In this document: in pieces, positions 14,070-62,332 of the stretch
How the letters are laid out: each line of letters opens with the position of its first letter
Position numbering within the stretch: the first letter of the stretch is position 1
Source of the DNA: Microbacterium sp. SLBN-154
Lineage (GTDB): Bacteria > Actinomycetota > Actinomycetes > Actinomycetales > Microbacteriaceae
Reading direction: 5' to 3'
NCBI RefSeq assembly: GCF_006715565.1
Contig: NZ_VFNL01000001.1
Location: 2,976,001-3,040,000 of the forward strand
Length of the DNA: 64,000 nucleotides
The notes under the pieces: model-generated
Told to the model about the DNA's origin: nothing
What the model saw: only the letters and a program-made list of their open reading frames with translations
The model's database searches: none
Made by a program: the position numbers and the translations under genes

Positions 14070-14103
14070 GTTCGCATTACGCACTTATGGTCGCTTCTCG
14101 CAC
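14070..14103. promoter_or_regulatory. Tandem 15-bp operator pair A with promoter
   Basis: GTTCGCATTACGCAC (14070-14084) and GGTCGCTTCTCGCAC (14089-14103) are separated by four bases. They lie between the divergent aminotransferase operon and the aldehyde dehydrogenase gene. A -10-like TATGCT at 14112-14117 follows the second element for the plus-strand gene, putting that element over the -35 region. The same two-element layout with a 4-bp gap recurs at six other promoters in the window. The IclR regulator gene lies just downstream of the aldehyde dehydrogenase and is the likely binder. Confidence 0.72.
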
Positions 14104-14169
14104 ACTACCTCTATGCTGGGTGAGGATCAAACATCACATCCGTTCGGTCCGGAAAGGACGAGGGCGCCC

Positions 14170-15636
14170 ATGTCCACACCAGCGACGCAGATCGCCGACG
14201 ATCTGCTACGTACCCAGCTTCACATCGCCGGCGGGTGGCGGGACGGTTCCACCGGCGAGTCCTCCCCGGTCATCGATCCGGCCACCGGTGAAACCGTCGC
14301 CGAGGTGGCCGTCGCGACCCCCGACGACATGGTCGCGGCGATCGACGCGGCGCAGGAGGCCTTCGCCGGCTGGTCGCGCACGCCGGCCCCGCAGCGCTCG
14401 CGCATCCTCCGCCGCTGGTACGAGCTCATCGTCGAGCGCGCGGACGACCTCGCCCAGCTCCTGACCGCCGAGCAGGGCAAGCCCCTGGCCGAGGCGCGCG
14501 GCGAGATCCTCTACGGCGCGGGCTTCATCGAGTGGTTCGCCGAGGAGGCCAAGCGTCTCTACGGCGAGGTCATCCCGACCAACAACCCCGACCGCCGCAT
14601 GATGACGATCCGCAGCGCCGTGGGCGTGACCGCGGCGATCACGCCGTGGAACTTCCCGTGCGCGATGATCCTGCGCAAGGCCGCGCCCGCCCTCGCGGCC
14701 GGCTGCTCGATGATCATCAAGCCCGCCGAAGAGACGCCGCTGTCGGCCCTCGCCCTCGCCGCGCTCGCGCAGGAGGCGGGGATCCCCGCCGGCGTGCTGA
14801 GCGTGGTCACCGGCTCCGGCCCCCGCCTGGGTGAGGTGCTGACCGGCGATGAGCGCGTGCGCACCATCAGCTTCACCGGCTCCACCGAGGTCGGGCGCAT
14901 CCTCATGGCCCAGTCGGCGGGCACCCTCAAGCGCCTGGCGCTCGAGCTCGGCGGGAACGCCCCCCTCATCGTGTTCGACGACGCCGACCTCGACAACGCC
15001 GTCAAGGGCGCGATGGACTCGAAGTTCCGCAACGCCGGGCAGACCTGCGTGTGCGCCAACCGCATCTTCGTCCAGGACGGCATCCACGACGCGTTCGTCG
15101 AGGCGCTCGGCCGCGAGATGGCGAAGCTGCGGGTCGGCGACGGCCGCGAGCCCGGCACGACCCAGGGGCCCCTCATCTCCTCCGCCGCCGTCGACAAGGT
15201 CCGCCGCCACATCGACGACGCCCGAGACAAGGGCGCCCGCGTGGTGCAGGGCGGCGACCTCACCGAGCAAGGACGCACGTTCTTCACCCCCACCCTCATC
15301 GTCGACGCGAGCCCCGACATGCTGCTCGCGCGCGAGGAGACCTTCGGCCCGCTCGCGCCCGTCATCCGCTTCTCCACCGAGGAGGAGGCCATCCGGATGG
15401 CCAACGACACCGAGTTCGGCCTCGCCGGCTACTTCTTCAGCCGCGACATCGGACGCATCACACGGGTGTCCGAAGCCCTCGAGGTCGGCGTGGTCGGAGT
15501 CAACACGGGCCTCATCTCCTATGAGGGAGCGCCCTTCGGCGGGGTGAAGCAGTCGGGCATCGGCCGCGAGGGCTCGCGGCACGGGATCGAGGAGTACACC
15601 GACCTGAAATACATCTGCATCGAGGGCGTCGCGTGA
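14170..15636 (+). CDS. NAD(P)-dependent semialdehyde dehydrogenase (SSADH/KGSADH-like)
   Basis: A 488-residue aldehyde dehydrogenase. It has ITPWNFPCAMILRKAAPALAAG, SFTGSTEVG for the cofactor, catalytic glutamate in LELGGNAP (near residue 259) and nucleophilic cysteine in GQTCVCANR (near residue 293). The best family fit is succinate-semialdehyde dehydrogenase (GabD). The same branch includes alpha-ketoglutarate semialdehyde dehydrogenases of hydroxyproline catabolism. It probably oxidises the aldehyde from the divergent omega-aminotransferase or from DapA-like enzymes of the same regulon. ATG 14170 follows GGAAAGGACGAGG; longer upstream frames run through the promoter and operator. Confidence 0.9.
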   Translation: MSTPATQIADDLLRTQLHIAGGWRDGSTGESSPVIDPATGETVAEVAVATPDDMVAAIDAAQEAFAGWSRTPAPQRSRILRRWYELIVERADDLAQLLTAEQGKPLAEARGEILYGAGFIEWFAEEAKRLYGEVIPTNNPDRRMMTIRSAVGVTAAITPWNFPCAMILRKAAPALAAGCSMIIKPAEETPLSALALAALAQEAGIPAGVLSVVTGSGPRLGEVLTGDERVRTISFTGSTEVGRILMAQSAGTLKRLALELGGNAPLIVFDDADLDNAVKGAMDSKFRNAGQTCVCANRIFVQDGIHDAFVEALGREMAKLRVGDGREPGTTQGPLISSAAVDKVRRHIDDARDKGARVVQGGDLTEQGRTFFTPTLIVDASPDMLLAREETFGPLAPVIRFSTEEEAIRMANDTEFGLAGYFFSRDIGRITRVSEALEVGVVGVNTGLISYEGAPFGGVKQSGIGREGSRHGIEEYTDLKYICIEGVA

Positions 15637-15726
15637 CCCGGATGCCGCGGGGCGGCCGGTCCACGACGGAGGCGGATTGATATGGTGATCCCACTTTCCG
15701 CCGACGTCACAGAGGAACGTAGCGCG

Positions 15727-16530
15727 ATGACCGACACCGAGACCGACCGCAAGTCGGGCGAGTTCATCCAGTCCCTGGATCGCGGGCTCGCCGTCATCCG
15801 CGCCTTCTCCAACGAACGCGACCTGCTGTCTCTGGCCGACGTCGCCAAGATCACCCACCTGAGTCGCGCCTCGGTGCGTCGGGCGCTGCTGACGCTCGAG
15901 ACCCTGGGGTACGTCGGAAGCCGTCAGAACCGGTTCTACCTGCGCCCTCGGGTGCTCGACCTCGGCTATGCGTTCCTGTCGTCCTCGAGCCGGATCGACA
16001 TCATCCAGGACCACCTGCGGCGGCTGTCCGCTCAGATCGGCGAGTCGGTGTCGGCGTGCGAGTACGACGACGGCGATGTGGTCTACGTCGCCCGCGCCGC
16101 GACCGAGACGATCATGCCCATCCGCCTGGGGATCGGCCGACGGCTGCCCGCCTTCTGCACCTCGACCGGACGGGTGCTGCTCTCGGAGTTCGATGACGCC
16201 GCGCTCGATGAGTACTTCCGCACCTATCCGCGCGAGAAGCTCTCCCCCGCGACGATCGTCGACGAGCAGGAGTTGCGCGAACGCATCGCCGAGGTCCGTC
16301 AGCAGGGCTGGGCGCTGAACAACCAGGAGGTCGACCTCGGTGCGCGTTCTGTCGCGGCCCCCGTCGTCGGCGCCGACGGTCGCTACGTCAGCGCGGTGAA
16401 CCTCTCCGTGTCGACCTCGCGGGTCTCGGTCGAGCAGCTCGTCACCGACTACCTCCCGCAGCTGCTCGACGCCACCCGCGCCATGAGCGCGGACCTTGCG
16501 CTGCTGGACCGGCGCAAGACCTACGAGTGA
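15727..16530 (+). CDS. IclR-family regulator of the PcaR/PobR subgroup
   Basis: A 267-residue IclR protein. Winged HTH about residues 10-70 (SLDRGLAVIRAFSNE, then LADVAKITHLSRASVRRALLTLETLGYV), followed by RPRVLDLGYAFLSS, characteristic of the pca/pob regulators, and a C-terminal effector domain. ATG 15727 (MTDTETDRK) is preferred over 15682 because GAGGAA precedes it and the extra 15 residues look non-conserved. It lies 90 bp after the aldehyde dehydrogenase and 50 bp before an old-yellow-enzyme gene. Proteins of this subgroup bind palindromes such as those at 14070, 25162-25235, 54803, 57779, 59412 and 62299, so it is the best candidate regulator of the whole catabolic regulon. The effector is unknown. 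Confidence 0.9.
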   Translation: MTDTETDRKSGEFIQSLDRGLAVIRAFSNERDLLSLADVAKITHLSRASVRRALLTLETLGYVGSRQNRFYLRPRVLDLGYAFLSSSSRIDIIQDHLRRLSAQIGESVSACEYDDGDVVYVARAATETIMPIRLGIGRRLPAFCTSTGRVLLSEFDDAALDEYFRTYPREKLSPATIVDEQELRERIAEVRQQGWALNNQEVDLGARSVAAPVVGADGRYVSAVNLSVSTSRVSVEQLVTDYLPQLLDATRAMSADLALLDRRKTYE

Positions 16531-16579
16531 CTCTCCTCGTAGATCGCATCACTTTCTCGCTCTTCCTCGAAGGACCCCT

Positions 16580-17662
16580 GTGCCTCGTCTGTCTCCGCGC
16601 CTGTTCGACCCCATCACCGTCGGGGGCCTGACCGTTCCCCATCGTCTCTGGGTCGCTCCGATGTGCCAGTACTCCTCGGTCGACGGCATGCCCGGCGAAT
16701 GGCATCTGGTCCACCTCGGCTCGTTCGCCATCGGGCGCGCCGGTCTCATCATGACCGAGGCCGCGGCGGTCTCGCCCATCGGACGCATCACGCCCGACGA
16801 CGCCGGCATCTGGAACGACGACCACACCGCCGGATGGCGGCGCGTCGTCGATTTCGTCCACGGAATGGACGGCCTGATCGGCATTCAGCTCTCCCACGCC
16901 GGGCGCAAAGCCTCGACGTACCCCCCGACACGAGGCCGCGGATCGGTGCCGGCGTCCGAGGGCGGTTGGACCACGGTCGGACCGTCAGCGGTCGCGTGGG
17001 GACCGTTCACGCCGCCGGTCGAACTCGACCGCGAGGGGATCGCACGCATCGTCGCGGAGTTCGGCGACGCCGCCGCGCGATCGGTGGAGGCCGGCTTCGA
17101 CCTCGTCGAGATCCACGCGGCGCACGGATACCTACTGGGCCAGTTCCTGTCCCCCACCTCCAACCTCCGCACCGATGAGTACGGCGGCGACGTCGCGGGG
17201 CGCTCGCGCATCGTGCGCGAGGTCGTCGAGGCCGTGCGTGCGCGCGTGCCGTCCGAGATGCCCGTGGTGCTGCGCGTGTCGGCGTCGGAGTGGGTGCCCG
17301 GCGGCGTCACCGTCGACGACACCATCGCCGCGCTCCACCTGATCGACGGTGTCGACCTCGTGAGCGTGTCGTCCGGTGGGAACAATCCCGACCAGGCCAT
17401 CCCCTCCGGGCCCGGCTATCAGCAGCCGCTCTCACGCGCCGTGCGCGCCGCGATCGACGCCCCGGTGGGTGTGGCGGGCCTGATCACCACCCCCGAGCAG
17501 GCCGAGGCGGCGCTCGGGGCGGAAGACACCGACGTCGTCTACGTCGCGCGGCAGTTCCTGCGCGAGCCGACGTTCGCGCTGCGCGCGGCGGCCGCGCTCG
17601 GCGGTGAGCTGGCGTGGCCGTGGCAGTACAACCGCGCGAAGTACGTCGAGAGCATCCCCTGA
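16580..17662 (+). CDS. NADH:flavin oxidoreductase / old yellow enzyme (YqjM type)
   Basis: A 360-residue FMN-dependent TIM-barrel ene-reductase. The N-terminal APMCQYSS carries the cysteine typical of YqjM-class enzymes, SHAGRK and EIHAAHGYLLGQFLSP carry the phenolate-binding histidines, and NLRTDEYGG follows. These enzymes reduce activated C=C bonds with NAD(P)H. GTG 16580 has AAGGA seven bases upstream and gives the expected length; an earlier in-frame start at 16496 lies in the IclR gene. It follows the IclR gene on the same strand and probably shares its transcript. It could handle an unsaturated intermediate of the regulon, but this is inference. Confidence 0.88.
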   Translation: MPRLSPRLFDPITVGGLTVPHRLWVAPMCQYSSVDGMPGEWHLVHLGSFAIGRAGLIMTEAAAVSPIGRITPDDAGIWNDDHTAGWRRVVDFVHGMDGLIGIQLSHAGRKASTYPPTRGRGSVPASEGGWTTVGPSAVAWGPFTPPVELDREGIARIVAEFGDAAARSVEAGFDLVEIHAAHGYLLGQFLSPTSNLRTDEYGGDVAGRSRIVREVVEAVRARVPSEMPVVLRVSASEWVPGGVTVDDTIAALHLIDGVDLVSVSSGGNNPDQAIPSGPGYQQPLSRAVRAAIDAPVGVAGLITTPEQAEAALGAEDTDVVYVARQFLREPTFALRAAAALGGELAWPWQYNRAKYVESIP

Positions 17663-17699: not shown

Positions 17700-18023
17700 T
17701 CAGTGGGCGGTGTCGGGGTCCGGCTCGCCGCCGCCCGCTCCCACCTGGTGCTCGACGGTCATCCCCTCGCGCACCCACGTCATGCAGGTGCGGGTCTGCG
17801 GCACCCCGTCGACCACCATGGTGCAGTCGAAGCACACCCCCATGCCGCAGAAGTAGCCGCGCGGGGCGCCGCCCTCGGTGACACGCAGGGCCAGCGCCTC
17901 GGCGGCCATGACGGCGGCGGCGACGCTCTCACCCTCGAAGGCGGTCACGGTCACGCCGTCGACGACGATGTCGACCGGGCGGCCCCGCTCCAGTCCGTGG
18001 CCGGGCAGCCGGCGGCCGCTCAC
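17700..18023 (-). CDS. HcnA-type (2Fe-2S)-binding dehydrogenase subunit
   Basis: A 107-residue ferredoxin-like protein with the plant-type 2Fe-2S ligands in CGMGVCFDC plus a downstream TRTC. This is the small subunit type of HcnABC, opine oxidase and D-hydroxyproline dehydrogenase, and corresponds to the N-terminal domain of sarcosine oxidase alpha. The GTG start at 18023 overlaps the stop of the DapA-like gene (GTGA). It is the last gene of the operon starting at 25129. Its partners should be the fused BC protein at 18990-21686, from which it is separated by the DapA-like gene. In the second locus this domain is fused to the B subunit instead. Confidence 0.86.
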   Translation of the reverse strand: MSGRRLPGHGLERGRPVDIVVDGVTVTAFEGESVAAAVMAAEALALRVTEGGAPRGYFCGMGVCFDCTMVVDGVPQTRTCMTWVREGMTVEHQVGAGGGEPDPDTAH

Positions 18024-18964
18024 GCGGTCACCCGATCCGGTGCGAGCAGGCCCTCCTCCTGGAGGATCGATCGCATCGTCCGAAGGTCGTCGGCGTCGGT
18101 GATGGGCAGCCGCGGTCGGCGCACGTGGCCTGCCGGCTGATCCAGCATGTGCATCAGGGCCTTCAGCTGCGCCTGGTACGAGCCGAACTGCCCCGCCCAG
18201 CCGCCGGGGAGCCACAGCTTCGGAAACAGCCGGTCGGATCGTTCGGCGTGTGCGCGCATCCGATCGACGTTTCCGGACCAGTGGTCCTCCCAGAACTGCG
18301 GATCCGGGCGACCGTAGAGCGAACCGCCGCCGACGGTGCCGTCTCCGCCCTCGCTGCGGAGCACGTCGACCCCTCGGGCCGACATGTAGGGACCGAAGAC
18401 GCGTACCCGATCGCGCACACGCCGCGACGTCTCGAAGAACTGATCGGCGTCCGGCGTGGAGTCCTTGATCGCCACGACGGAATCGACGTCGGCCAGACGG
18501 TCGGCCAGCTCCGTGCCGATGTCGATGCCGGTCCCGTGCGGCCAGTTGTAGACCACGACGGGAGCCCGCAGCGCCGCGCCGATCTCCTCGTACCAGGCGA
18601 CGACTTCGTTCGGGAAGAGCTTGATGTAGGGCGGGGGCGAGACCAGCACGCCGTCGACGCCGGCATCGATCGCGTGACGACCGAGGGCGAGGACGTTCGT
18701 GGCGGTGTTCGATGTGCATCCCACGAGGACGCTGAGCCGGCCTCCCGCAGCGGCGACGGCGGTCTCAGCGACCTGCCGGCGCTCGTCCTCACTCTGGGAG
18801 AACCACTCGCCGCAGGTGCCGTTCACGACCACGCCGTGCATGCCGCGGTCGGCGTACTGCTCGATCAGCGCGTGGAGCGTGGGCAGGTCGAGTTCGCCGG
18901 TCTCGGTGAAGGGGGTGACGACGGCGGGGTAATAGCCGGCCCAGTCGACATCGTCGCGATTCAT
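18020..18964 (-). CDS. DapA/NAL-superfamily lyase or deaminase (copy 1)
   Basis: A 314-residue TIM-barrel aldolase-family protein. It has NGTCGEWFSQSEDERRQV (the family's GTTGE position reads GTCGE), the tyrosine of VVYNWPHGTG near residue 138 and the Schiff-base lysine of VVAIKDSTPD near 166. Beyond dihydrodipicolinate synthase the family includes deaminases acting on pyrroline-carboxylates in hydroxyproline breakdown and various 2-keto acid aldolases. GAGGAG nine bases before ATG 18964 supports the start. It lies between the two parts of an HcnABC-type dehydrogenase, so it probably acts on that enzyme's product. The exact substrate is undetermined. Confidence 0.84.
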   Translation of the reverse strand: MNRDDVDWAGYYPAVVTPFTETGELDLPTLHALIEQYADRGMHGVVVNGTCGEWFSQSEDERRQVAETAVAAAGGRLSVLVGCTSNTATNVLALGRHAIDAGVDGVLVSPPPYIKLFPNEVVAWYEEIGAALRAPVVVYNWPHGTGIDIGTELADRLADVDSVVAIKDSTPDADQFFETSRRVRDRVRVFGPYMSARGVDVLRSEGGDGTVGGGSLYGRPDPQFWEDHWSGNVDRMRAHAERSDRLFPKLWLPGGWAGQFGSYQAQLKALMHMLDQPAGHVRRPRLPITDADDLRTMRSILQEEGLLAPDRVTA

Positions 18965-18989: not shown

Positions 18990-21686
18990 TCATCGCGTCG
19001 GTGCCGAGGCGATGGTGCGGTCCAGTGAGAACCGGGTCGGGAATCGGGAGGCGGTGCGCGCGGGATCGACGATGGATTCGGCGACCTGGCGGGCGTAGAT
19101 CGGGGAGAAGGTGAAGCCGGTCGAGGCGACACAGGCGTGGTAGCCGGGCACCCGCTCGGACTCTCCCACGATCGGTGAGTAGTCGTCGGTGAAGGCGATG
19201 ACGCCCGACCACGTGCGCACGACCCGCACGTCCTCGAGCTGCGGGACGACGTCGAGGGCCACCCGGAGGTTGCCCGCAGCGCTGCGCCAGGTGGTCGGAT
19301 AGCGGCGCGGATAGCCCGTCGCCGGGCTCGGCCACCCGCCGCCGATGATGAACGACCCGTGATGGGTCTGCTTGAGGGTGAGCCGGCGGCCGATGTGCTG
19401 GATCATCGACGGCAGGAGGGGCCTGCGAGCCTCGGTGACGTTGACGTGCAGGCCCTCGCGCCTGATGGGGAAGTCCAGCCCCACCATCGCGCCGATCTCA
19501 CCCGCCCATCCGCCTGCGCAGTTGACGATGTGGCGCGCACGGATGACGCCGGCACTCGTCGTCACCCGGAAACGGTAGGACGAGTCGGACTCGTCGACCT
19601 CGATGGCGAACACCTCGGTGTCCACGCGGAAGCGCGCACCGTGCTCTCGTGCCCTCCGGGCGTACAGTGGCGCGACGATAAGCGGATTGGCATGACCTTC
19701 GAGGTCGCAGTAGGTCGCCCCGAGCACACGGTCGGAGAAGTACGGCGCGCGGGCGCGCAGCGCTGCACCTTCGAGCACCTCGGTGTGGATGCCCGCTTCC
19801 TCCTCGAGAAGGTGCTTCTCGTGCAGGAGGGTCAGCTGCTCCGGCGTCTCGGCGACCATCCAGCCGCCGGTCTGATGGAGCCCGACATCGGCGCCGAGCT
19901 CCTCGGAGAGAGACGTCCACAGCGCGTACGCCTCGACGCTCGCCCGCGCGTCGCTGAGCAGCCGCGACCGATCGGCCTCGGTGCCCTTGCCGGAGAGCTG
20001 ATGGATGGCGAGTTGGAAGTGGAAGCTGCCGGCATTGGTCCCGGATGCTTCACGGTTGAGCTGGCCGCGATCGAGCAGTTCCACCTCGACACCCTCGCGG
20101 GCGAGGTAGTAGGCGACCGCCGCCCCGGCGATGCCGCCGCCGATGACGAGGACGTCGGTGTCGGTCACAGGGTCGCGCGGCCGACGGGCGAGGTCGCCGG
20201 GAGCGAGGTCGGTGCGCTCGGGTTCGACGGGATCGTCCTCCCCCGCCTGGAACAGCCCCGGATCGGCCACGTCGGCATCGGCGATCGCACCGATCGGCAC
20301 GGGCCGCGCGGGCATCCGCGGGGTGGCCGGCAGCACCGTCGCCGGCGCCACACCCTTCTGCTCGGCGATCAGCGCAGCGATGTGCCGCCCGCACATCCGC
20401 CCCTGGCACGGCCCCATGCCCGCACGGGTGAGCGCCTTGACTGCACTGACGTCGGGTGCTTCGGCGACCGCGGCGCGGATCTCGCCTTCGCGGACGCCCT
20501 CGCAGCGGCAGACGACGGTGTCGTCCTCGGCGAGCCCGAAGATCCCCTCGCCCACGTGGTACATCCGGGTGGTCGCGCGGGTGAGCGCCCGCCGCCGGCT
20601 GATCCGGCGACGCAGGCCCGCGATCGCCGAGCTGTCGACGGATGGGGTGCCGACGTCCTGCGTCACGGCGAGCGCCGCGAGGCGCCCCTCGTCGGCGGCT
20701 ACGGCGGATCCTTCGACGCCCGCGCCGTCGCCGGCGACGTAGATGCCGGCGACATCGGTACGGCCGAGATCGTCGCGGTGCACGACGGGGCCGCCGAGAT
20801 CCTCGTCGATGTCGAAACGGCAGCCGACGAGTCGCAGGAGCTCAGCACTCGGGGTGAACCCGTAGCCGATGCAGAGGATGTCGGCCTCGATGCTCTCCTC
20901 GGTACCGGGGAGCACGCGCCACCGCTCGTCCACGCGCGCGTGGACGACGCGTTCGACCCGTCCTTCGCCTTCGGCGCGCACGACGATGCGCCGATACTTC
21001 AGCGGGATCCCGCGACGCAGCAGGGTCGCCTGGTACCGCGCGGCGTCGCCGAGCAGGCCGACGTTGCCCGGGGCGGCGGCGGCGATCCGGGCGAGGTCGG
21101 TGGCGGATGGTGCGGGCCCGGCCTCGAGTGCGGTGACGATGTTGGCGCCGTAGCCGGCCAGCTGCGCGGGGAAGGCGAGGGCGACCGGACCGGAGCCTGC
21201 GAACACCACCCGGTCTCCCGGGACGAAGGACTGCGTCTTGGCCAGGGTCTGCAGACCGCCGGCGGTGATGACACCGGGAAGATCCCAGCCGGGGAAGACG
21301 ACCGGACGGTCGTGCGCTCCCGTCGCGAGGATGACCGCTCGCGCCCGGAGCGGGACGACGGCGCCGTCTTCGGGGTGGACCATGGCCGTCCATCCCGTCT
21401 CGGACGGCTCGAGATCCACGACGCTGGAGCGAAGCCGCACCGTCGCCCCCGAGGCCTCGACCTCGTCAATGAGACTCCGACCCTGGCGGTACTGCTTCCC
21501 CATCTCGCGGGCGTTCACCACCCGCATCCCGGGACCCGGCTGCTTGTACACCTGCCCACCGAGGGTCGGACGCTCGTCGATCAGCACCGCATCCAGTCCG
21601 CGTGTCGCCGCGGTCGCGGCGGCGGCCATGCCGGCCGGACCGCCCCCGATGATCAGGACGTCGTGCACCTGCTCATCGACGGTCAT
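18990..21686 (-). CDS. Fused HcnB-HcnC type dehydrogenase (two FAD domains in one chain)
   Basis: An 898-residue fusion. Residues 1 to about 480 form an HcnB/OoxA-type oxidoreductase: GGGPAGMAAA for FAD, a second nucleotide-binding fold, and a C-terminal BFD-like 2Fe-2S domain with cysteines in VVCRCEG and GPCQGRMCG (about 390-435). After a proline- and aspartate-rich linker, residues from about 510 form a DadA/HcnC-type FAD amine oxidase (VLVIGGGIAGAAVAYYLA, later GGGWPSPATGYPRRYP). Known relatives oxidise glycine to cyanide, opines, or D-hydroxyproline with separate subunits; the single-chain BC form is unusual. The matching 2Fe-2S subunit is encoded two genes downstream. ATG 21686 lies three bases after the upstream lipoprotein stop. 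Substrate unknown. Confidence 0.87.
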   Translation of the reverse strand: MTVDEQVHDVLIIGGGPAGMAAAATAATRGLDAVLIDERPTLGGQVYKQPGPGMRVVNAREMGKQYRQGRSLIDEVEASGATVRLRSSVVDLEPSETGWTAMVHPEDGAVVPLRARAVILATGAHDRPVVFPGWDLPGVITAGGLQTLAKTQSFVPGDRVVFAGSGPVALAFPAQLAGYGANIVTALEAGPAPSATDLARIAAAAPGNVGLLGDAARYQATLLRRGIPLKYRRIVVRAEGEGRVERVVHARVDERWRVLPGTEESIEADILCIGYGFTPSAELLRLVGCRFDIDEDLGGPVVHRDDLGRTDVAGIYVAGDGAGVEGSAVAADEGRLAALAVTQDVGTPSVDSSAIAGLRRRISRRRALTRATTRMYHVGEGIFGLAEDDTVVCRCEGVREGEIRAAVAEAPDVSAVKALTRAGMGPCQGRMCGRHIAALIAEQKGVAPATVLPATPRMPARPVPIGAIADADVADPGLFQAGEDDPVEPERTDLAPGDLARRPRDPVTDTDVLVIGGGIAGAAVAYYLAREGVEVELLDRGQLNREASGTNAGSFHFQLAIHQLSGKGTEADRSRLLSDARASVEAYALWTSLSEELGADVGLHQTGGWMVAETPEQLTLLHEKHLLEEEAGIHTEVLEGAALRARAPYFSDRVLGATYCDLEGHANPLIVAPLYARRAREHGARFRVDTEVFAIEVDESDSSYRFRVTTSAGVIRARHIVNCAGGWAGEIGAMVGLDFPIRREGLHVNVTEARRPLLPSMIQHIGRRLTLKQTHHGSFIIGGGWPSPATGYPRRYPTTWRSAAGNLRVALDVVPQLEDVRVVRTWSGVIAFTDDYSPIVGESERVPGYHACVASTGFTFSPIYARQVAESIVDPARTASRFPTRFSLDRTIASAPTR

Positions 21687-22550: not shown

Positions 22551-22602
22551 AACGGTTTCCAATCGTTCGGATGGGTGGGAGTGCTCGAAGGGTCGAGAGG
22601 GA

Positions 22603-25195: not shown

Positions 25196-25201
25196 AGAAC
25201 T

Positions 25202-54802: not shown

Positions 54803-54836
54803 GACCTCTCTGCGAACAACTGTACGTAAAGTGAAC
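54803..54836. promoter_or_regulatory. Tandem 15-bp operator pair D
   Basis: GACCTCTCTGCGAAC (54803-54817, one good half-site) and GTACGTAAAGTGAAC (54822-54836), four bases apart, in inverted orientation relative to pair A. They lie in the 58-bp gap between the DapA-like gene and the HcnC-type gene. A -10-like TACGGT at 54845-54850 lies six bases before the plus-strand ATG, so that mRNA may be leaderless. Confidence 0.6.
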
Positions 54837-54856
54837 ACCCAGGATACGGTGTAGGC

Positions 54857-56014
54857 ATGGTGGATCGGAAGCATCCCGGGCATGTCTTCGATGTCGCGGT
54901 GGTCGGTGGCGGCGCGAGCGGGGCCTCGGCGACCTACCATCTGAGCCGGGCCGGACTCGATGTGGTGCTCCTGGACCGCAACGATCTCAATACCGAGGCG
55001 TCCGGGCGGAATGCGGGAAGTCTCCACGGTCAGATCCAGCACGAGCCCTTCCTGGAGGAGGGTGCCGAGTGGGCGGAGGAATGGCTGCCCGCACTGCGGT
55101 TCCTGGCCGACTCCCTGACGCTCTGGGACGATCTGAGCGACGAACTGGGCACCGATCTGCAGGTGGCGAAGAAGGGCGGCATCCTCGTCGCAGACGACGT
55201 GAGCCAGCTCGCCGCGATCGAGCGGAAGGTCGCGCTCGAGAATCGGATCGGCATTCCCAGTCGGATGCTATCGGCCGACGACCTCCGAGGCCTTGCGCCG
55301 TGGCTCAGCGACACCGTCGTCGGCGGCGAGCTGTGCCCCATCGAGGGGAAGGCGAATCCCCTTCTCGTCGCTCCGGCCTTCGCGCGCCGCGCCGTCGAAG
55401 CGGGAGCCCTGGTGCGCACCCAGACCCCGGCGGTCGGCTTCGATCGCGACGGCGACGCCCGCGTCATCCGGACCCCCGGCGGCGATGTGCGGGCACGACG
55501 CGTCATCCTCGCGGGAGGGGACGGGATGCCGGACCTCGCCCGCCACTTCGACCTCGACCTTCCGATCTCCAGCGGCGCGGTCCAGGTGAGCGTCACCGAG
55601 CGCGTCGATCCGATGGTGGCGCACCTGTTCTACTACGCCGGCGGAAAGCTGACCTTCAAGCAGGCGCAGTCCGGCACCCTGCTCATCGGCGGCGGATGGC
55701 CGGCTCGGCGCAACGCCGCCGGAGAATGGGTCGTCAACCCCGATTCGCTGCGTGCGAACCTCGCGATGGCGATCCGCATCGCGCCGATGATCGCCGACCT
55801 CGCCCTCCTTCGCACCTGGACCGGCATCGGCAACGGAACCCCCGACCACCGGCCGATCATCGGCCCCGTGACGGCCGAGGGCGACGTCATCGTCGGGTTC
55901 TACCCGTACATGGGCTTCACGGCGGCACCCCTCATGGGGCGGATCCTCGCCGATCTGGCCCAGGACAGGGATCCGGGCCTCGACCTCGCGCCGTTCGCTC
56001 CGACCCGATTCTGA
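54857..56014 (+). CDS. HcnC/DadA-type FAD-dependent amine oxidase subunit
   Basis: A 385-residue FAD oxidoreductase: VAVVGGGASGASATYHLSRAG at the N-terminus, RNAGSLHGQIQHEP, and a C-terminal GIGNGTPDHRPIIGP plus GFYPYMGFTAAP for cofactor and active site. It corresponds to the C-terminal half of the locus 1 fusion and to HcnC/D-hydroxyproline dehydrogenase beta. ATG 54857 has no ribosome-binding site, consistent with a leaderless message. Its partner is the fused AB protein at 56045-57760, encoded on the opposite strand, tail to tail. Confidence 0.87.
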   Translation: MVDRKHPGHVFDVAVVGGGASGASATYHLSRAGLDVVLLDRNDLNTEASGRNAGSLHGQIQHEPFLEEGAEWAEEWLPALRFLADSLTLWDDLSDELGTDLQVAKKGGILVADDVSQLAAIERKVALENRIGIPSRMLSADDLRGLAPWLSDTVVGGELCPIEGKANPLLVAPAFARRAVEAGALVRTQTPAVGFDRDGDARVIRTPGGDVRARRVILAGGDGMPDLARHFDLDLPISSGAVQVSVTERVDPMVAHLFYYAGGKLTFKQAQSGTLLIGGGWPARRNAAGEWVVNPDSLRANLAMAIRIAPMIADLALLRTWTGIGNGTPDHRPIIGPVTAEGDVIVGFYPYMGFTAAPLMGRILADLAQDRDPGLDLAPFAPTRF

Positions 56015-56044: not shown

Positions 56045-57760
56045 TCACCCCTGGGCGACGTCCCCGAGCGGAACAGGCTTGACCGGAGCCTGCGGGGCGA
56101 ACCCGGAGCGCTCCGCGACGGCGACACCGGTGCGCGCAGCCTGCATCGCCGTGAGGACCGGGCCGCAGTACCGCCCTTGGCACTTCCCCATGCCGGCGCG
56201 CGTGACGCGCTTGACGGCACCGGCCGTGGTGACGCCATCGGTCATCGACTCGGCGAGGTCGCCGTGCGTCGTGCCTTCGCACCGACAGACCACCGTGTCG
56301 GGCCGGGCGAGCTGGTCGGTGAGGACCGGGGCCGCGAACAGCGTGTTCACGGCCCGCTGGAACGCCGCCTGACGGCGCGCGTCCGCCGCCGCCCGGCGGG
56401 GTGCGCCCGACGGCTCGCCGCGAAGGTCGCGGCGGACGGCGGCCGCGGCCAGCTTCGCCTGAGCCTGCGCGAACTTCGCGCCACGCACGCCCGCGGTGTC
56501 GCCGATCGCGAAGACGGACTCGATCGATGTGCGGCCGTCATCGTCGGTCACCGTGCGCAGCGCACCGCGGGCCGCATCTACCTCGTGCCGGCACCCGAGC
56601 GATCGTGCGAGATCGTTCCCCGGGAGGAAGCCGTAGCCGAGGCACACGGCGTCGACGTCGAAGGACCCCAGCTCCCGCGTCATCCGTCCCTCTTCATCGA
56701 TGCGTCCGATGTTCGCGCGGGAGACACCGTCTGCGGGGTCCCCCTCGAGTCCCACCACTGCCGCGCCGGTGATGATCGGAACGCGGCGCGCCGTCAACTC
56801 GGCGAGGTAGCGCACACCGTCGGCGGTGAGACCGGGGACGGCGAGGGCCATGCGCGCGACCGCGGCTGCGCGAAGCGGCGAGAAGATCCGGGCGGCCTCC
56901 ACCAGTGCGACGACGTTCACTCCCCCGCGCGACAGCTCAGCGGCCAGCTGGACATTCAGCGGCCCGTTCCCCGCCACGAGGACACGGTCGCCGGGAGAGA
57001 CCTGATAGGACCGCAGCAGGGTCTGGCCCGCACCCGTGGTCATGACACCCGGGAGGGTCCACCCCGGGATCGGGACGCCGCGCTCGTAGGCACCGGCGGC
57101 GATCACCACGCGCCGGGGGCGGATGATCCAGCGCTCCCGCTCCGACCGAGCGAGGAAGCGGTCCGGCTCGAAGGCCGCCCACACCGTGGTGCCGAGGAGC
57201 GTGCGCACCCCCGCGGTCTGAGCCGCGCGGATCAACCGGCGACCCGCGGTGTACTGGCCGTCCAGACGGTCCTCGTCGACGCGGAACGCCGGGTCGGGCT
57301 GCTTGTAGTACTGCCCTCCGAGCTTCGGACGATCGTCGACCAGCAGCACATCCAGGCCCGCCTCGGCCAGATCTGTCGCGACGACGAGTCCCGCGGGCCC
57401 GGCCCCGATGACGAGGACGTCGGGCGCGATCTCGGTCTCGGGCCGCGCCTGGGCCGCCCCGGCGGGAACCCGACGCCGGGGCGGTTGGGTCTCGACGATC
57501 TGTCCGTCCCGCGCGGGGGTCATGCAGGCGAGCCGGGCGTCCTCGCCGTCGATGCGCACCGCGCACTCGTGACACACGCCCATGCCGCACCAGACCCCGC
57601 GCCGACCGCCCGCGTCATCGGCGCGATTGCCCCGCTCCCCCGCCGCGACCATCGCGCTGGCGACCGAGTCGGTGGCGGTGACGGGCACGGTGCGGCCGTC
57701 GAAGCACAGCGCGCCGTCGCCGTCGGCGTCGCCTCCGATGCCGGGGGTGGTCACTCTCAT
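56045..57760 (-). CDS. Fused HcnA-HcnB type dehydrogenase subunit
   Basis: A 571-residue fusion. Residues about 15-90 form a 2Fe-2S domain (CGMGVCHEC, then LACMTP); from about 110 an HcnB-type FAD/NAD oxidoreductase (VLVIGAGPAGLVVATDLAEAG, KLGGQYYKQPDP), ending in a BFD-like 2Fe-2S domain (VVCRCEGTTHGD and KCQGRYCG). It is the alpha-type chain of an HcnABC/opine-oxidase-like dehydrogenase whose C subunit is at 54857-56014. ATG 57760 with GAGGAGG upstream is chosen; the ATG at 57799 would place operator pair E inside the gene and adds a non-conserved leader. Confidence 0.88.
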   Translation of the reverse strand: MRVTTPGIGGDADGDGALCFDGRTVPVTATDSVASAMVAAGERGNRADDAGGRRGVWCGMGVCHECAVRIDGEDARLACMTPARDGQIVETQPPRRRVPAGAAQARPETEIAPDVLVIGAGPAGLVVATDLAEAGLDVLLVDDRPKLGGQYYKQPDPAFRVDEDRLDGQYTAGRRLIRAAQTAGVRTLLGTTVWAAFEPDRFLARSERERWIIRPRRVVIAAGAYERGVPIPGWTLPGVMTTGAGQTLLRSYQVSPGDRVLVAGNGPLNVQLAAELSRGGVNVVALVEAARIFSPLRAAAVARMALAVPGLTADGVRYLAELTARRVPIITGAAVVGLEGDPADGVSRANIGRIDEEGRMTRELGSFDVDAVCLGYGFLPGNDLARSLGCRHEVDAARGALRTVTDDDGRTSIESVFAIGDTAGVRGAKFAQAQAKLAAAAVRRDLRGEPSGAPRRAAADARRQAAFQRAVNTLFAAPVLTDQLARPDTVVCRCEGTTHGDLAESMTDGVTTAGAVKRVTRAGMGKCQGRYCGPVLTAMQAARTGVAVAERSGFAPQAPVKPVPLGDVAQG

Positions 57761-57778: not shown

Positions 57779-57812
57779 GTTCGCAGGACGCACGTTCATT
57801 CGCCATACGAAC
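57779..57812. promoter_or_regulatory. Tandem 15-bp operator pair E
   Basis: GTTCGCAGGACGCAC (57779-57793) and ATTCGCCATACGAAC (57798-57812), four bases apart. A -10-like TATGCT at 57822-57827 follows for the plus strand, the same hexamer as at pair A. The pair controls the divergent HcnAB-type and SDR genes. Confidence 0.72.
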
Positions 57813-57864
57813 CGGATCCATTATGCTTGGTCCTGAGGTCCCGCGACCGTTCCTGGAGGCAATC

Positions 57865-57921
57865 ATGACTCGTCCGCCTGCTGATCTTCCCCAGCCCGAC
57901 GGCGTCGGCGGTCGCCGATGA
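57865..57921 (+). CDS. Short leader ORF coupled to SDR 3 (18 codons)
   Basis: ATG 57865, preceded by a good TGGAGGC ribosome-binding site, opens an 18-residue frame (MTRPPADLPQPDGVGGRR). Its TGA overlaps the ATG of the next gene as ATGA, and the SDR itself has no clear ribosome-binding site. It may serve to load ribosomes for the SDR, or may be a leader or a remnant. No homology expected at this length. Confidence 0.45.
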   Translation: MTRPPADLPQPDGVGGRR

Positions 57922-58682
57922 ACGAGCTGGCGGGACGGACCATCCTCGTCACGGGCGCTTCCGGCGGCATCGGCCGCGCAACGGTCGAGCGACTCGCCTC
58001 CACCGGCGCCCGGGTCATCGGGCATTGCCGCTCGAATCCCGAGGGGGCCCGCAAAGCCATCGCCGATTTCCCGGACGGAACCGCCACGGTCGTCCAGGCC
58101 GACCTCGCCGACCCGCAGGGCGCATCCGAACTGTGGCAGACCGCGCTGGACTGGGCGGGGCGGATCGACGTGGTGGTCCTGAACGCGGCGATCATGCCCA
58201 AGGTCGAGCTCGATGACACCGACGACGCGTGGAACGACACCTTCGAACAGGCCCTGCAGGTCAACACCCTCAGCCAGCTCACGCTCATCCGAAGGTCGCT
58301 GGCGCACTTCTTGACCGAGGGCGGCGGCACGATCGTGGGACTCAGCAGCTGGGTGACACAGCGGGGAGCGGGCAACCCGAACCTCGTCGCCTACGCCGCC
58401 TCGAAGGCGGCGACCGCTGCGGCGCTGAAGACGGTCGCCCGCGCGTACGCGGCGGACGGCGTTCTCACCTACCTCATCGCCCCCGGCGCCGTGGACACTG
58501 CGATGTCCGCGTCGGCGGGAGCCGACCGCGGCGGGCGGGACGCCGTGCTGCAGACGCTCGCGATGGGCGAGATGGTGCCGCCGGCCGAGATCGCCGAGCT
58601 CGTCGCGCTGCTGGCCGGCGGCCGGGTTCGCCACCTGAGCGGCGCCACGCTCGACGTCAACGGGGCCACCTACGTGCGCTGA
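57918..58682 (+). CDS. Short-chain dehydrogenase/reductase (SDR 3)
   Basis: A 254-residue classical SDR: TGASGGIGRATVERL for the cofactor, NAAIMPK, catalytic serine in LSSWVTQ and YAASK near residue 158, ending VNGATYVR. It is the paralogue of SDR 2 at 26070-26828. ATG 57918 overlaps the stop of a short leader frame, suggesting coupled translation. It converges with SDR 4, the stops being 10 bp apart. Substrate unknown. Confidence 0.87.
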   Translation: MNELAGRTILVTGASGGIGRATVERLASTGARVIGHCRSNPEGARKAIADFPDGTATVVQADLADPQGASELWQTALDWAGRIDVVVLNAAIMPKVELDDTDDAWNDTFEQALQVNTLSQLTLIRRSLAHFLTEGGGTIVGLSSWVTQRGAGNPNLVAYAASKAATAAALKTVARAYAADGVLTYLIAPGAVDTAMSASAGADRGGRDAVLQTLAMGEMVPPAEIAELVALLAGGRVRHLSGATLDVNGATYVR

Positions 58683-58692: not shown

Positions 58693-59361
58693 TCAGCGGG
58701 AGCCGACGCCCTCTTCGATGCGTTCGATGACGCTCCACCCCGAGTCGATCACCACGAGGGCGCCGGTGACGTGCCGTGACACGTCCGACGCGAGGAAGCG
58801 CAGCGCCGTCTCATCCTGATCGCCGGCGGGCGCCAGGGCGTTCACCCGCACGCCGTGGGGCTCGAGCTCCTGAGCGAACTCACGCACCATCTGGTTGATC
58901 GCCTCCGAGGACATCGCGCGCGTGCCACGTTCTCCACCCGTCGCGGCGCGCGACCCCGAGTAGGCGATGATCGACCCGCGACCCCGGGCGGCCATTGCGG
59001 GAGCGAAATGGCGAAGCGCTGCCCAGCACGACGCGACCTCGGCGGTGAACGCATCGACGAGGTCCTGTTCCATGAACATCGGAGCAGCCGTGGTCGATCC
59101 GGCATCGGCGCAGTGGATCAGCACCTCGGTGTCGTCGAACTCCGCAGCCAGCCGCTGCACGTGGGTGCCGTCGGTGACGTCGGCTGCCCGCACCTGGAAG
59201 CGGTCATCGGCCCCGAAGGCGGCCTCGAGCTGCGCGACATCCTCGTCGGCGACGATCACGCGCGCCCCGTGCCCGGCCAACGCGTGCGCCGCCGAGCGCC
59301 CCATGGCACCCGCGGCACCGAGGACCAGCACGGTGCGGCCGGTCAGGTCAGGGGCGGACAT
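58693..59361 (-). CDS. Atypical SDR lacking the YxxxK catalytic motif (SDR 4)
   Basis: A 222-residue SDR-fold protein with a normal cofactor motif (LGAAGAMGRSAAHALAG) and GSIIAYSGSRA holding the serine. The catalytic tyrosine and lysine position reads RAMSSEAINQMVREFA, so both appear replaced (Y to A, K to E by simple alignment). The C-terminus LVVIDSGWS is like enoyl-ACP/glucose-type SDRs. It may bind rather than turn over its ligand, or use another mechanism. It is expressed from operator pair F. Confidence 0.78.
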   Translation of the reverse strand: MSAPDLTGRTVLVLGAAGAMGRSAAHALAGHGARVIVADEDVAQLEAAFGADDRFQVRAADVTDGTHVQRLAAEFDDTEVLIHCADAGSTTAAPMFMEQDLVDAFTAEVASCWAALRHFAPAMAARGRGSIIAYSGSRAATGGERGTRAMSSEAINQMVREFAQELEPHGVRVNALAPAGDQDETALRFLASDVSRHVTGALVVIDSGWSVIERIEEGVGSR

Positions 59362-59411: not shown

Positions 59412-59445
59412 GTTCGCTTACCGCACACACGTTCACTGTGCGATC
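59412..59445. promoter_or_regulatory. Tandem 15-bp operator pair F
   Basis: GTTCGCTTACCGCAC (59412-59426) and GTTCACTGTGCGATC (59431-59445), four bases apart. They lie in the 129-bp gap before the minus-strand SDR 4 gene, after the end of the amino-acid transporter operon. Confidence 0.68.
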
Positions 59446-59490
59446 GCCTTCCCCTATCTTGCACGAGAACCACCGGGGCCGCATCTCTGA

Positions 59491-60303
59491 TCATGTGAAG
59501 GGCTCGCCCGCGTCCTCCGCAGAGCGCGTGTCGAGGATTCGGGAGAGGAAGCGTCGCGTGCGCTCCTCGACGGGATGATCGAGCACCTCGACGGCGCTGC
59601 CGCTCTCGACGATCCGTCCGTCGTCCATGAACACCACCCGGTCGGCGACCTCCCGTGCGAACTCGATCTCATGCGTGACGACGATCATCGTCAACCCCTC
59701 GGACGCGAGGCGGCGCATGACCGAGAGCACCTCCCCGACGGTTTCAGGATCAAGGGCCGAGGTGGGCTCGTCGAAGAGCATGACGCGCGGGCGCATGGCC
59801 AGAGCCCGAGCGATCGCCGCGCGCTGTTGCTGGCCGCCCGAGAGCTGGCGGGGGTAGGCAGACTCCTTGCCGCTGAGCTGCACCCACTCCAGCAGTTGAC
59901 GCGCATGGGTCTCCGCCTCGGCCCGTGGGGTGCGCAGAACCTGAATGGGAGCTTCGACGATGTTCTGCAGCACCGTCATGTGACCGAACAGATTGAAGTT
60001 CTGGAACACCATGCCGATCTCGGTGCGCTGACGCGCGAGCTCCGCCGGGGCGATCTCGACGAGATGTCCTCGGCTCTCACGAACCCCCACCGGCTCGTCA
60101 CCGAGCCACACGACCCCCGCGGTCGGGGTCTCGAGGTGGTTGATGCAGCGCAGGAGCGTGGATTTTCCCGACCCGGACGGGCCGATCACACAGACGACCT
60201 CGCCGCGGAAGACCTCGAGATCCACCGCATGGAGAACCGCAAGCGAGCCGAAGCTCTTGCTCACCGACTGCAGGCGGATGACCGGATCGACGATCGTTGT
60301 CAT
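59491..60303 (-). CDS. Amino-acid ABC transporter ATP-binding protein (locus 2)
   Basis: A 270-residue GlnQ/HisP-type ATPase: Walker [11 protein letters not shown]-loop [11 protein letters not shown], signature LSGGQQQR, Walker [15 protein letters not shown], and [25 protein letters not shown] 60303 overlaps the permease stop. It is the last gene of the three-gene transporter operon of locus 2, a parallel of the one at 21690-24170. Confidence 0.91.
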
Positions 60304-61325
60304 ACGGGCGTCTTCTCTTTCGGCGCCGAAGCGGGGGTGGTAGTGGTGGTGCGGGGCAGCAGCTTGCGCAGCTTCTGCACGTAGGTGTCGGGAGCGCTGC
60401 GGGTCGCACCACGTGCGTAGTACTTCTCGATGTAGTGCTGCCCGATCGAGAGCACGGTGGTCATCACGAGGTACCAGATGCACGCCACCACCAGAAGCGG
60501 AATGGTCTCGAAAGTGCGGGCGTAGATCACCTGGACGGTGTAGAGGAGCTCACTGATGGCGACGATGCTCACCAGGCTCGTTCCCTTGAGCATCGAGATC
60601 ACCTGGTTGCCGGTCGGTGGGACGATGACCCGCATCGCCTGCGGCAGCACGATGCGCCGCATCGCCCGACGACGCGACATGCCGAGCGCAGCAGCAGCCT
60701 CGCTCTGGCCCTGATCGACCGACTGGATGCCGGCACGGATGATCTCGGACATGTAGGCACCCTCGTTCAGCCCGAGCCCGAGCAGCGCGGCGATGAGAGA
60801 GCTGATCACGGTGTTGGTGTCCCATTCGAACCACTGTGGGCCGAAGGGGATCCCGAGGGTGAGCTTGGGAAGGAAGCTGGCGAGGTTGTACCAGAACAGC
60901 AGCTGCACCAGCAGTGGCGTTCCGCGGAAGAGCCAGATGTAACCGTCGGCGGCCACGTTGAACAGGAGGCTGTTGGAGATCTTCATCAGGGCGAGGATCA
61001 ACCCGATGAGGCACCCGAGCACCATCGCGACCGCGGTGAGGAACAGGGTCAGGCCGACCCCCTGAAGCACACGGGCACTGAACAGGTACTCTCCGACGAC
61101 ATCCCACCGCATGGCATCGGCGGTGAGGAACTTCGAGATGATCTCGAGCACGAACAACACCAGCAGGATGCGCAGCGCCCATCCCGCGACCTTCAGTGTG
61201 ATCTGGCGCCCCGTGGTGGTCCGCACCCGCGGCCCATCCGGACCTCGGCCGATCTGCAGCGTCGCCGTCAGCGGCCCCCGGCTCCGACGCTCGTCGGGCG
61301 CCTCGTCTGTGCCGGTCGAGGTCAC
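60300..61325 (-). CDS. Amino-acid ABC transporter permease (locus 2)
   Basis: A 341-residue HisM-type permease. A long charged N-terminal part precedes the first membrane segment (about residue 35), followed by five segments and the coupling loop [24 protein letters not shown] 61325 overlaps the binding-protein stop (GTGA). The N-terminal and C-terminal tails are longer than in the locus 1 permease. Confidence 0.9.
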
Positions 61326-62257
61326 TGCTCAACGCTCGGGTTGACGACCGCCTCATCGAGGAGGCCGAAATCGACATCCCAGCTGGTCATGATCGCCTCG
61401 TACGTACCGTCCTCGATCAGCTGGTTCACCGCCGCCGCGATGGCCTCGGTCATCCCGGACTCCTTACCCACGGCTACGCCTTCGAGGTTCGGCTGGTAGT
61501 CCAGCGGCTGGATCTCGAGACCTTCGGCGCTGCTGTCCTCGCGCAGCAGCCACGAGAGCTGTCCCTTCGCGGTCATGAACGCGTCGATCCGGTCCGAGCT
61601 GACGGCCAGGATCGCCGCGCCCTGCTGCGGGAAGGAGTCGATGGTCGGAGCAGGCTCCCCGGCGTCTTCGCAGATGGCGACGATCTCCTCGATCTGGATG
61701 AGGAACGCCGAGCCCGCCAAGGCCCCGACCCGCAGGCCGCACAGGTCCTCCGGGGTGCTGATGTCCAGGCCCGCGCCCTCACTCGTGATGACCCCGGTCG
61801 TGCTCTCGTGCACGGCGACGATGTCGACGACGTCGAGTCGCTCCTGCGTGACGATGATCGACGCCCACGAGCTGTCGAACCGGCCGTTCTCGATCCCCGG
61901 GATGAATGTGTCGAATGCACCCGACACCTCGGCGGTGTACTCCAATCCGAGGAGCGCTGCAGCCGCGCGACCGAGGTCAGGACCCCACCCGGCGATCTCG
62001 TCATTCTCGTCGAGGAACGTGTCCGCGGGGGCGTTGTCGAACTGGATGGCCGTGAGAGTTCCACGATCGGCGACGTCGTCGGGCACGAGCGCGGCGAGCT
62101 CGTCGTTCGTCTCGATCGCGACCCCGGCGACCTCGATCGCGAGGTCCGAACCGCCCGCGTCTTCGGCGGATTCCGACGTGCAGCCCGTGAGTGCGAGCCC
62201 GAGGGCGGAGAAGGCGGCAAGGCCGACGAGAACGCGGCGGGAGACGGAGGTGTTCAT
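61322..62257 (-). CDS. Amino-acid ABC transporter substrate-binding lipoprotein (locus 2)
   Basis: A 311-residue SBP_bac_3 lipoprotein: lipobox LTGC near residue 25, then GWGPDLGRAAAALLGLEY and DTFIPGIENGRFDSSWASI. GAAGGAGC before ATG 62257 supports the start. It is first in the operon controlled by pair G. It is not closely similar to the locus 1 binding protein, so the ligands may differ. Confidence 0.89.
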   Translation of the reverse strand: MNTSVSRRVLVGLAAFSALGLALTGCTSESAEDAGGSDLAIEVAGVAIETNDELAALVPDDVADRGTLTAIQFDNAPADTFLDENDEIAGWGPDLGRAAAALLGLEYTAEVSGAFDTFIPGIENGRFDSSWASIIVTQERLDVVDIVAVHESTTGVITSEGAGLDISTPEDLCGLRVGALAGSAFLIQIEEIVAICEDAGEPAPTIDSFPQQGAAILAVSSDRIDAFMTAKGQLSWLLREDSSAEGLEIQPLDYQPNLEGVAVGKESGMTEAIAAAVNQLIEDGTYEAIMTSWDVDFGLLDEAVVNPSVEQ

Positions 62258-62298
62258 CGAAAGTTGCTCCTTCAAGACGTGACGACGGGGGCGGAAGT

Positions 62299-62332
62299 GT
62301 GCGTAATACGCACGAGTGTTCACTATGCGTTC
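62299..62332. promoter_or_regulatory. Tandem 15-bp operator pair G
   Basis: GTGCGTAATACGCAC (62299-62313), a perfect palindrome apart from its central base, and GTTCACTATGCGTTC (62318-62332), four bases apart. It is upstream of the minus-strand amino-acid transporter operon. It is the most symmetric copy of the element. Confidence 0.72.

Follow-up and report, generated by a model that had tools for sequence, protein, structure and literature searches.

Tandem operators with a fixed 19-bp spacing and a predicted IclR-type catabolic regulon in Microbacterium sp. SLBN-154

Background

Seven pairs of similar 15-bp palindromes lie in the gaps between catabolic genes in a 64,000-nucleotide stretch of the genome of Microbacterium sp. 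SLBN-154 (contig NZ_VFNL01000001.1, positions 2,976,001–3,040,000), called the window here and numbered from its first letter. The same stretch encodes a regulator of the IclR family, IclR1. Are these pairs operators, which protein would bind them, and what would the genes beside them do together? The pairs are real, their conservation indicates that they are functional, and their design is a known one. The preferred explanation, to which we assign a probability of about 0.7, is that a regulator of the IclR family, most likely IclR1, uses them as tandem operators and would exert dual control over about 26 catabolic genes.

Operator pairs in the window

The initial annotation of this DNA listed 14 elements arranged as seven pairs, and direct reading confirmed all of them: every element is at its given start, and the start-to-start distance is 19 bp in 7 of 7 pairs (15 + 4 + 15). 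The consensus of the 15-bp palindrome is GTNCGNNNNNCGNAC, and that of 37 operators (the seven in the window and 30 of the 43 from relatives described below) is GTNCG-N5-CGNAC. The seven promoter regions originally counted are six, because the pairs 25162/25181 and 25202/25221 share a single intergenic region, where they form a four-element array with steps of 19, 21 and 19 bp.

Operator 1 (14070–14103, elements 14070 and 14089) is between an aminotransferase operon on the minus strand and, on the plus strand, an operon for an aldehyde dehydrogenase (ALDH), IclR1 and an Old-yellow-enzyme-type flavin oxidoreductase (OYE). Operator 2 (25162–25235, elements 25162, 25181, 25202 and 25221) separates a VOC-ABC-amine dehydrogenase operon (minus) from an operon for two SDR proteins, a 3-hydroxyacyl-CoA-dehydrogenase-like protein (HCDH) and an HpcH/HpaI aldolase (plus). 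Operator 3 (54803–54836) is between the genes for DHDPS2 (minus) and DAO2 (plus), and operator 4 (57779–57812) between those for PyrRed (minus) and SDR3 (plus). Operators 5 (59412–59445) and 6 (62299–62332) are upstream of the minus-strand genes for SDR4 and SBP2, respectively.

A pair matrix was built from the same 14 elements. It scored the seven pairs at 28.2–34.6; in 60 first-order Markov versions of the window the highest pair score was 16.1. As the matrix was self-trained, each of the six promoter regions was held out in turn, and every left-out pair still scored above every non-listed pair across the 64 kb. Element 14089 is the weakest single element, at 0.6 bits once held out; all 9 of the 9 orthologous promoters that were aligned have the corresponding GGTCGC....CG.AC without variation. 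The seven 34-bp operators are all clear of coding regions in a hand-made gene list that leaves 9% of the window non-coding and that was without part of GcvPA (10825–11498), identified later. A 34-position profile trained on the 37 operators gave 12 matches in the window with default filters, and only at the seven known places; at this sensitivity the earlier observation that no pair precedes the peptide, iron or housekeeping operons still holds.

Conservation in related genomes

Using IclR1 as the query, 15 related loci were retrieved from ten genomes: Microbacterium, Plantibacter, Leucobacter, Salinibacterium, Aeromicrobium and a record labelled Planococcus. The nearness of an IclR gene in these loci is no proof by itself, because they were fetched by an IclR query. 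The loci contain 43 pairs at 19 bp, none at 18, 20 or 22 bp, and none at any distance in the reversed sequence. The 29 other distances tried gave 26 matches together, including 10 at 40 bp and 5 at 21 bp, the two distances that are steps across the four-element array. At least one pair was present in 14 of the 15 loci. Judged by the positions of pairs and genes, 34 of the 43 pairs are at promoters orthologous to those of operators 1, 2, 3, 4 or 6 – nine for operator 1, ten for operator 2 (two per promoter), and five each for operators 3, 4 and 6 – with the other nine elsewhere in the related loci.

Five groups of promoters were aligned without gaps on the operator, with 9, 6, 6, 6 and 6 promoters (window included) for operators 1, 2, 3, 4 and 6. 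Conservation of the half-sites was 0.91–0.99, versus 0.56–0.78 for the flanks; the 0.78 belongs to the flanks of operator 3. Operator 1 was conserved in all 9 aligned promoters, operators 2 and 4 in 6 of 6, and the 54803 element of operator 3 was nearly invariant in 6 of 6. Operator 6 was found by the matrix, the held-out test and the alignment, and operator 5 by the matrix and the held-out test; a site orthologous to operator 5 was neither found nor aligned in the relatives.

The one locus without a pair above the threshold, L050, has a best score of 10.6, just upstream of its IclR1 gene, and the regulon cluster is absent within 10 kb on either side of that gene. The IclR1 gene in this locus (10001–12588) is 92% identical and stands beside genes for AsnC and alanine dehydrogenase.

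Co-occurrence was examined in an independent draw of 119 genomes of the genus (E ≤ 1e-120 for PyrRed, E ≤ 1e-80 for VOC and for IclR1). At these thresholds PyrRed matched four genomes, that of strain SLBN-154 among them, VOC matched the same four, and IclR1 matched these and one more. A single cluster around one IclR gene brings together parts of both halves in Leucobacter and in Aeromicrobium. Two of the related loci, L055 and L063, are contigs of the record labelled Planococcus (Bacillota), and carry Microbacterium-like cluster DNA with 69–70% GC; this record is probably mislabelled or contaminated.

Occurrence in the whole genome

The profile was also used to search the 3.57-Mb genome, with 150 of 501 first candidates scored. 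Among the candidates scored there were 19 matches at 11 places, seven of which are the operators of the window, themselves part of the training set. The remaining four (765450, 3412198, 820874 and 1115610) were absent from the training set. The match at 765450 adjoins genes for a CoA-transferase and a thiolase, near the genome's best match to TIGR02431, the model for PcaR/PcaU/PobR (338.6 bits, at 768 kb). The match at 3412198 falls where a dehydratase gene begins, with a gene for an FAD oxidoreductase next in line, and is near the third strong TIGR02431 match (3415 kb). At 1115610, one neighbour was scanned, and it matched no Pfam family at E ≤ 1e-8. The tandem-pair match at 820874–820905 (18.5 bits) is between genes for an MFS transporter and a DUF3237 protein, with no TIGR02431-matching regulator of the genome within 50 kb.

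In 49 loci of the same genome (155,064 bases), pairs spaced 18–22 bp were found outside the window once each in L019, L030 and L038; the pair in L019 is spaced 20 bp and has another IclR gene nearby. This genome thus tends to have tandem sites near its IclR genes, a pattern reported for the family by Suvorova and Gelfand in the main text of their study (PMC8222616). Single elements are weak evidence, because the single-element pattern with up to three mismatches occurs at least 527 times in the genome, against at least 302 times for a backwards control pattern, and these counts are not decisive.

Promoter geometry

Three plus-strand promoters have a putative −10 box at nearly the same distance from the start of the proximal element: TATGCT for ALDH-IclR-OYE (14112–14117, 23 nt), TACGGT for DAO2 (54845–54850, 23 nt) and TATGCT for SDR3 (57822–57827, 24 nt). 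With the aligned promoters included, TANNNT is found 22–24 nt after the proximal-element start on the plus sides of operators 1, 3, 4 and 5 in 10 of 10, 6 of 6, 6 of 6 and 1 of 1 cases. The best three-offset bin over the 12 operator sides of the window holds four, a value equalled in 66 of 20,000 shuffles. At ALDH, DAO2 and SDR3 the −35 position is inside the operator, and the sequence there is poor as a −35 box. Operator 6 is arranged differently. Each of the 6 aligned promoters has a minus-strand TTGAC box that begins 11–12 nt ahead of the operator, and with the usual 17-bp spacer this would put the −10 box inside the operator. The alignments thus point to two conserved promoter geometries, with the operator either on the −35 position or downstream of a −35-like box.

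Operator 3 has a further peculiarity. Its weak element (54803) reads GTTCGCAGAGAGGTC on the minus strand, directly before the start of DHDPS2, and contains AGAGAGG, likely the ribosome-binding sequence of DHDPS2, so that the operator element would have a double role. The departures of this element from the consensus are conserved, and fit a ribosome-binding sequence because of their place just before the DHDPS2 start. Operator 5 also has a box, TATCTT (59455–59460, plus strand), 24 nt away, which is aimed antisense into the ABC ATPase gene.

These geometries suggest a mechanism. One 15-bp palindrome would hold one IclR1 dimer, and palindrome centres 19 bp apart – about two turns, on the same face – would allow two dimers to bind, probably as a tetramer. 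At ALDH, DAO2 and SDR3 the proximal element would cover the −35 position, with the −10 box 22–24 nt from the element start, and the ligand-bound protein may activate such promoters, which lack a good −35 box. At SBP2, with a −35-like box just upstream, the operator should cover the −10 box, so unliganded protein would block SBP2. The result would be a dual mode of control, with a common response of ten transcription units: two flavin amine dehydrogenases, two DHDPS-family enzymes and two amino-acid-type importers, together with an aminotransferase, an aldehyde dehydrogenase, a split glycine-cleavage P-protein and reductases.

A simpler scheme is pure repression, in which bound protein blocks, an inducer releases it, and the fixed −10 distance is only steric. 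This is a serious possibility, although we put it at below even odds. It accords with operator 6, which has a −35-like TTGAC box ahead of it and is expected to lie over the −10, and with operator 3, which covers the likely ribosome-binding sequence of DHDPS2, but it accounts poorly for the ALDH, DAO2 and SDR3 promoters, where operator sequence stands in place of the −35 box and the −10 distance is nearly fixed in 22 of 22 promoters. Activator sites commonly take the place of the −35 box in this way, at a set spacing from the −10. The two promoter geometries, the operator element that may double as a ribosome-binding sequence, and the likely loss of a regulator described below are added by this analysis, and the locus offers a test case of how the same tandem operator can overlie the −35 at some promoters and be placed further downstream at another.

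The candidate regulator

IclR1 is encoded on the plus strand at 15727–16530, with AGAGGA before its ATG at 15727. It is above the Pfam cut-offs for HTH_IclR (50.3 bits, cut-off 22) and IclR_C (122.2 bits, cut-off 24). The initial annotation had placed it in the PcaR/PobR subgroup. This label is borderline: its TIGR02431 score of 283.4 bits is 1.35 bits under the cut-off of 284.75, and the genome has a better member elsewhere. IclR1 may resemble PcaR/PcaU/PobR in its working but is not counted as a member. The genome has three strong TIGR02431 matches. In blastp comparisons, the genome's PcaR is 48% identical to IclR1 and the third paralogue 37%; the third paralogue is on a very long branch in the tree described below, and the blastp value alone is relied on for it. 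The recognition helices of IclR1 (LSRASVRR) and the genome's PcaR (LTRAAARR) are alike.

A second regulator, IclR2, about 70% identical, is present in five of the ten related genomes (loci L058, L059, L061, L062 and L063), always in the right half of the cluster, between SDR3 and the ABC genes. The IclR1-query search showed no second copy in the other related genomes but does not exclude one. In the genus sample, at E ≤ 1e-80, genomes G017 and G095 have two IclR copies and G000, G086 and G051 have one. IclR2 is absent from the genome of strain SLBN-154; in the window, SDR4 and operator 5 occupy its place. A tree keeps the IclR1 and IclR2 groups apart, with Aeromicrobium outside both and the Leucobacter regulator beside IclR1 with modest support (90/89). 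This placement suggests a duplication that may predate Microbacterium and may have been followed by several losses. IclR2 was likely lost in this lineage. The claim of one catabolic regulon under the local IclR protein was upheld in part: relatives have operators at orthologous promoters, and the operators of the window, themselves in the training set, make up 7 of the 11 places found among the candidates scored in the genome. IclR1 is the probable binder; the presence of IclR2 in five relatives counts against it.

Two separate regulons are an unlikely alternative, in which IclR1 governs the left half while the right half arose under IclR2, and the right-half operators, with IclR2 gone, are relics or only in part taken over by IclR1. 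The position of IclR2 in the five loci, the variable copy number in the genus and the separation of the two groups in the tree are all as this alternative predicts. Yet the right-half operators score 28.5–34.6, as high as the left ones, SDR4 carries an operator where IclR2 would be, and in Leucobacter and Aeromicrobium a single regulator was found in the cluster joining parts of both halves.

Somewhat less likely still is that the operators, in part or in full, are bound by another TIGR02431-matching regulator, either the PcaR-like protein (768 kb) or the paralogue (3415 kb), with or without IclR1. Both proteins are near 19-bp pairs of the same consensus, and PcaR has the similar recognition helix; against this, several genera have the operators together with IclR1 or IclR2 (in loci chosen by an IclR query), the cluster genes go together with IclR1 in the genus sample, and the two proteins share only 48% and 37% identity with IclR1. 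Chance or coding-constraint repeats can be set aside despite the frequency of single elements, since a backwards pattern is also frequent, the Markov and reversed controls hold no comparable pairs, all seven operators are non-coding and conserved, and the held-out and orthologue tests refute it.

Several points weigh against dual control by IclR1. Binding and control of expression are predictions from sequence, and the operator profile was trained on these very operators. TANNNT at 22–24 nt is absent from the plus sides of operators 2 and 6 and from every minus side, the hexamer 17 bp after TTGACT at operator 6 is AACACT, a poor −10 box, and the plus-side −10 box of operator 5 serves no sense gene. 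The right-half operators are beside IclR2 in five relatives and IclR2 is missing here, so they may be former IclR2 targets. Finally, two more strong TIGR02431 matches have tandem pairs nearby (765450 and 3412198), and cross-binding is possible because the recognition helices of IclR1 and PcaR are similar.

A more tentative and rather doubtful proposal is that the locus is a natural rewiring, in which a pair of paralogous regulators used a common tandem operator code across two half-clusters, one member of the pair was lost in this lineage, and the other controls both halves of an undescribed pathway coupling two opine-type flavin amine dehydrogenases to a dedicated split P-protein that works with the housekeeping H-protein. 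The locus is also a test case for the division or sharing of operators among paralogous IclR regulators.

Gene content of the predicted regulon

With operon limits judged from strand and gaps, the regulon would comprise about 26 genes in ten transcription units. About 22 had been counted at first; the rest of the aminotransferase operon, including GcvPA and GcvPB, had been missed. This minus-strand operon of operator 1 begins with AT3, a class III aminotransferase (12684–14057, start codon 13 nt from the operator), followed by an NAD-kinase-like protein (11543–12679, start approximate) and the two subunits of a glycine-cleavage P-protein: GcvPA (10098–11498; 381.9 bits, equivalog cut-off 364) and GcvPB (8563–10101; 499.3 bits, cut-off 441; start from alignment, scanned frame 8563–10824). 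The last three are also present in the loci of nine relatives. GcvPB retains the motif HKTF, which we take to be the site of the PLP lysine, and the loop that follows it, KGGNGPS, presumably differs from the canonical loop. The cluster has no gene for an H-protein, and the genome's only GCV_H match, at 2530433, neighbours a one-chain GcvP (2527563). GcvPA and GcvPB are extra copies, because the genome has this complete one-chain GcvP and single H-protein match elsewhere.

On the plus side of operator 1, ALDH (14170–15636, start inferred from sequence) belongs to the succinate-semialdehyde-dehydrogenase subfamily, scoring 686.5 (cut-off 646.35) against that model and 376.1 (cut-off 770) against one alpha-KGSA model. 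It is followed by IclR1 and OYE (16496–17662, the whole open frame; the true start is probably near 16580).

Operator 2 precedes seven genes on the minus strand: VOC, a glyoxalase-fold protein (start inferred), and an amino-acid-type ABC importer (SBP1, permease, ATPase), together at 21690–25129; a fused amine dehydrogenase with Pyr_redox_2, BFD and DAO domains (18990–21686); DHDPS-family protein 1 (DHDPS1, 18020–18964, start inferred); and a Fer2_4 [2Fe-2S] subunit (17700–17990, upper end approximate, domain at about 17745–17981). The two SDR genes, HCDH and HpaI are on its plus side (25265–28693).

Six further units belong to operators 3–6: DHDPS-family protein 2 (DHDPS2, 53866–54798, minus, start inferred); DAO2, a DAO-type amine dehydrogenase subunit (54857–56014, plus); PyrRed, a fused Fer2_4, Pyr_redox_2 and BFD subunit (56045–57760, minus, start inferred); SDR3 (57918–58682, plus); SDR4, between SDR3 and the ABC ATPase gene (58693–59361, minus); and a second amino-acid-type ABC importer of three genes (ATPase, permease, SBP2; 59491–62257, minus, start inferred). 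Sequence searches of the PDB with DHDPS2, DAO2 and ALDH returned general names only.

Substrate and comparison with known systems

The coordinates given here are for about 26 genes that are expected to act on one compound, so the substrate can be looked for through what releases or recruits one regulator. The best guess, by analogy, is that it is perhaps an opine- or hydroxyproline-like secondary-amine amino acid. The split P-protein suggests that its breakdown releases glycine. An aromatic-acid regulon was rejected: no ring-cleavage or pca gene, and no protocatechuate, 4-hydroxybenzoate or beta-ketoadipate gene, was recognised among the genes under the operators, and there is a better PcaR match elsewhere. 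By domains, a hydroxyproline-type set is present – an alpha-beta-gamma flavin dehydrogenase and a DHDPS-family enzyme, the specificity of which is predicted only. The classical L-hydroxyproline pathway was rejected as a label, as the whole genome has no match to the hydroxyproline epimerase family PF05544 at E ≤ 0.001.

The tandem-operator architecture is an already described design for the IclR family. The main text of Suvorova and Gelfand 2021 (PMC8222616) predicts tandem IclR sites for 94 orthologous groups, with centres 18–22 nt apart, mainly 19–21, and gives the consensus GTNCG-N5-6-CGNAC for PcaR, PobR, CatR and others. By the same text, tandem sites fit tetramers with dimers facing one side of the DNA, and an IclR regulator generally acts on its own gene and on one or two operons next to it. 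The window shares the consensus and the tandem spacing, and differs in its exact 19-bp distance in 7 of 7 pairs, its four-element array and its ten predicted transcription units. The strings 'Microbacteri' and 'hydroxyproline' do not occur in that main text. The PcaR motif of Corynebacterium glutamicum tabulated there, GTTCGC-N3-GCGAAC, fits the element of the window, and IclR1 comes close to the model that covers PcaR. Unlike the PcaR systems of C. glutamicum and Pseudomonas putida, as far as this source describes them, the window has a regulator just under the TIGR02431 cut-off and operators over genes without a recognised pca function, in a genome with a separate, better PcaR match.

In the L-hydroxyproline operon SCO6289–6293 of Streptomyces coelicolor, as given in the available text of PMC6608401, a DAO beta subunit, a Fer2_4 gamma subunit and an alpha subunit (with Fer2_BFD) accompany a DHDPS-like deaminase. 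The window likewise has subunits of a three-part flavin dehydrogenase with a DHDPS-family partner. It differs in having two dehydrogenase sets and a genome without a PF05544 match, and the regulator in Streptomyces is the GntR protein HypR. The flavin opine dehydrogenase OdhABC is a three-part FAD/FMN/[2Fe-2S] enzyme, the homologues of which are clustered with ABC transporter genes (the accessible part of PMC4575208). The dehydrogenases of the window are of the same three-part type near ABC transporter genes, a likeness by description only, but their subunits are fused in two different ways and are accompanied by DHDPS, aldolase and GcvPA/GcvPB genes. To our knowledge of the open-licence literature, the gene set and the promoter details are new; other papers or supplements may describe them.

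Neighbouring genes

The dipeptide ABC genes at about 48–53.8 kb are on the same strand as DHDPS2 and follow it after a 68-bp gap. As a matter of judgement they were left out of the regulon, because the gap holds a promoter-like TATAGA on their strand. Another ABC transporter, resembling those for 2-aminoethylphosphonate or molybdate and without an operator, is encoded on the minus strand at 28641–31882, convergent with the HpaI operon.

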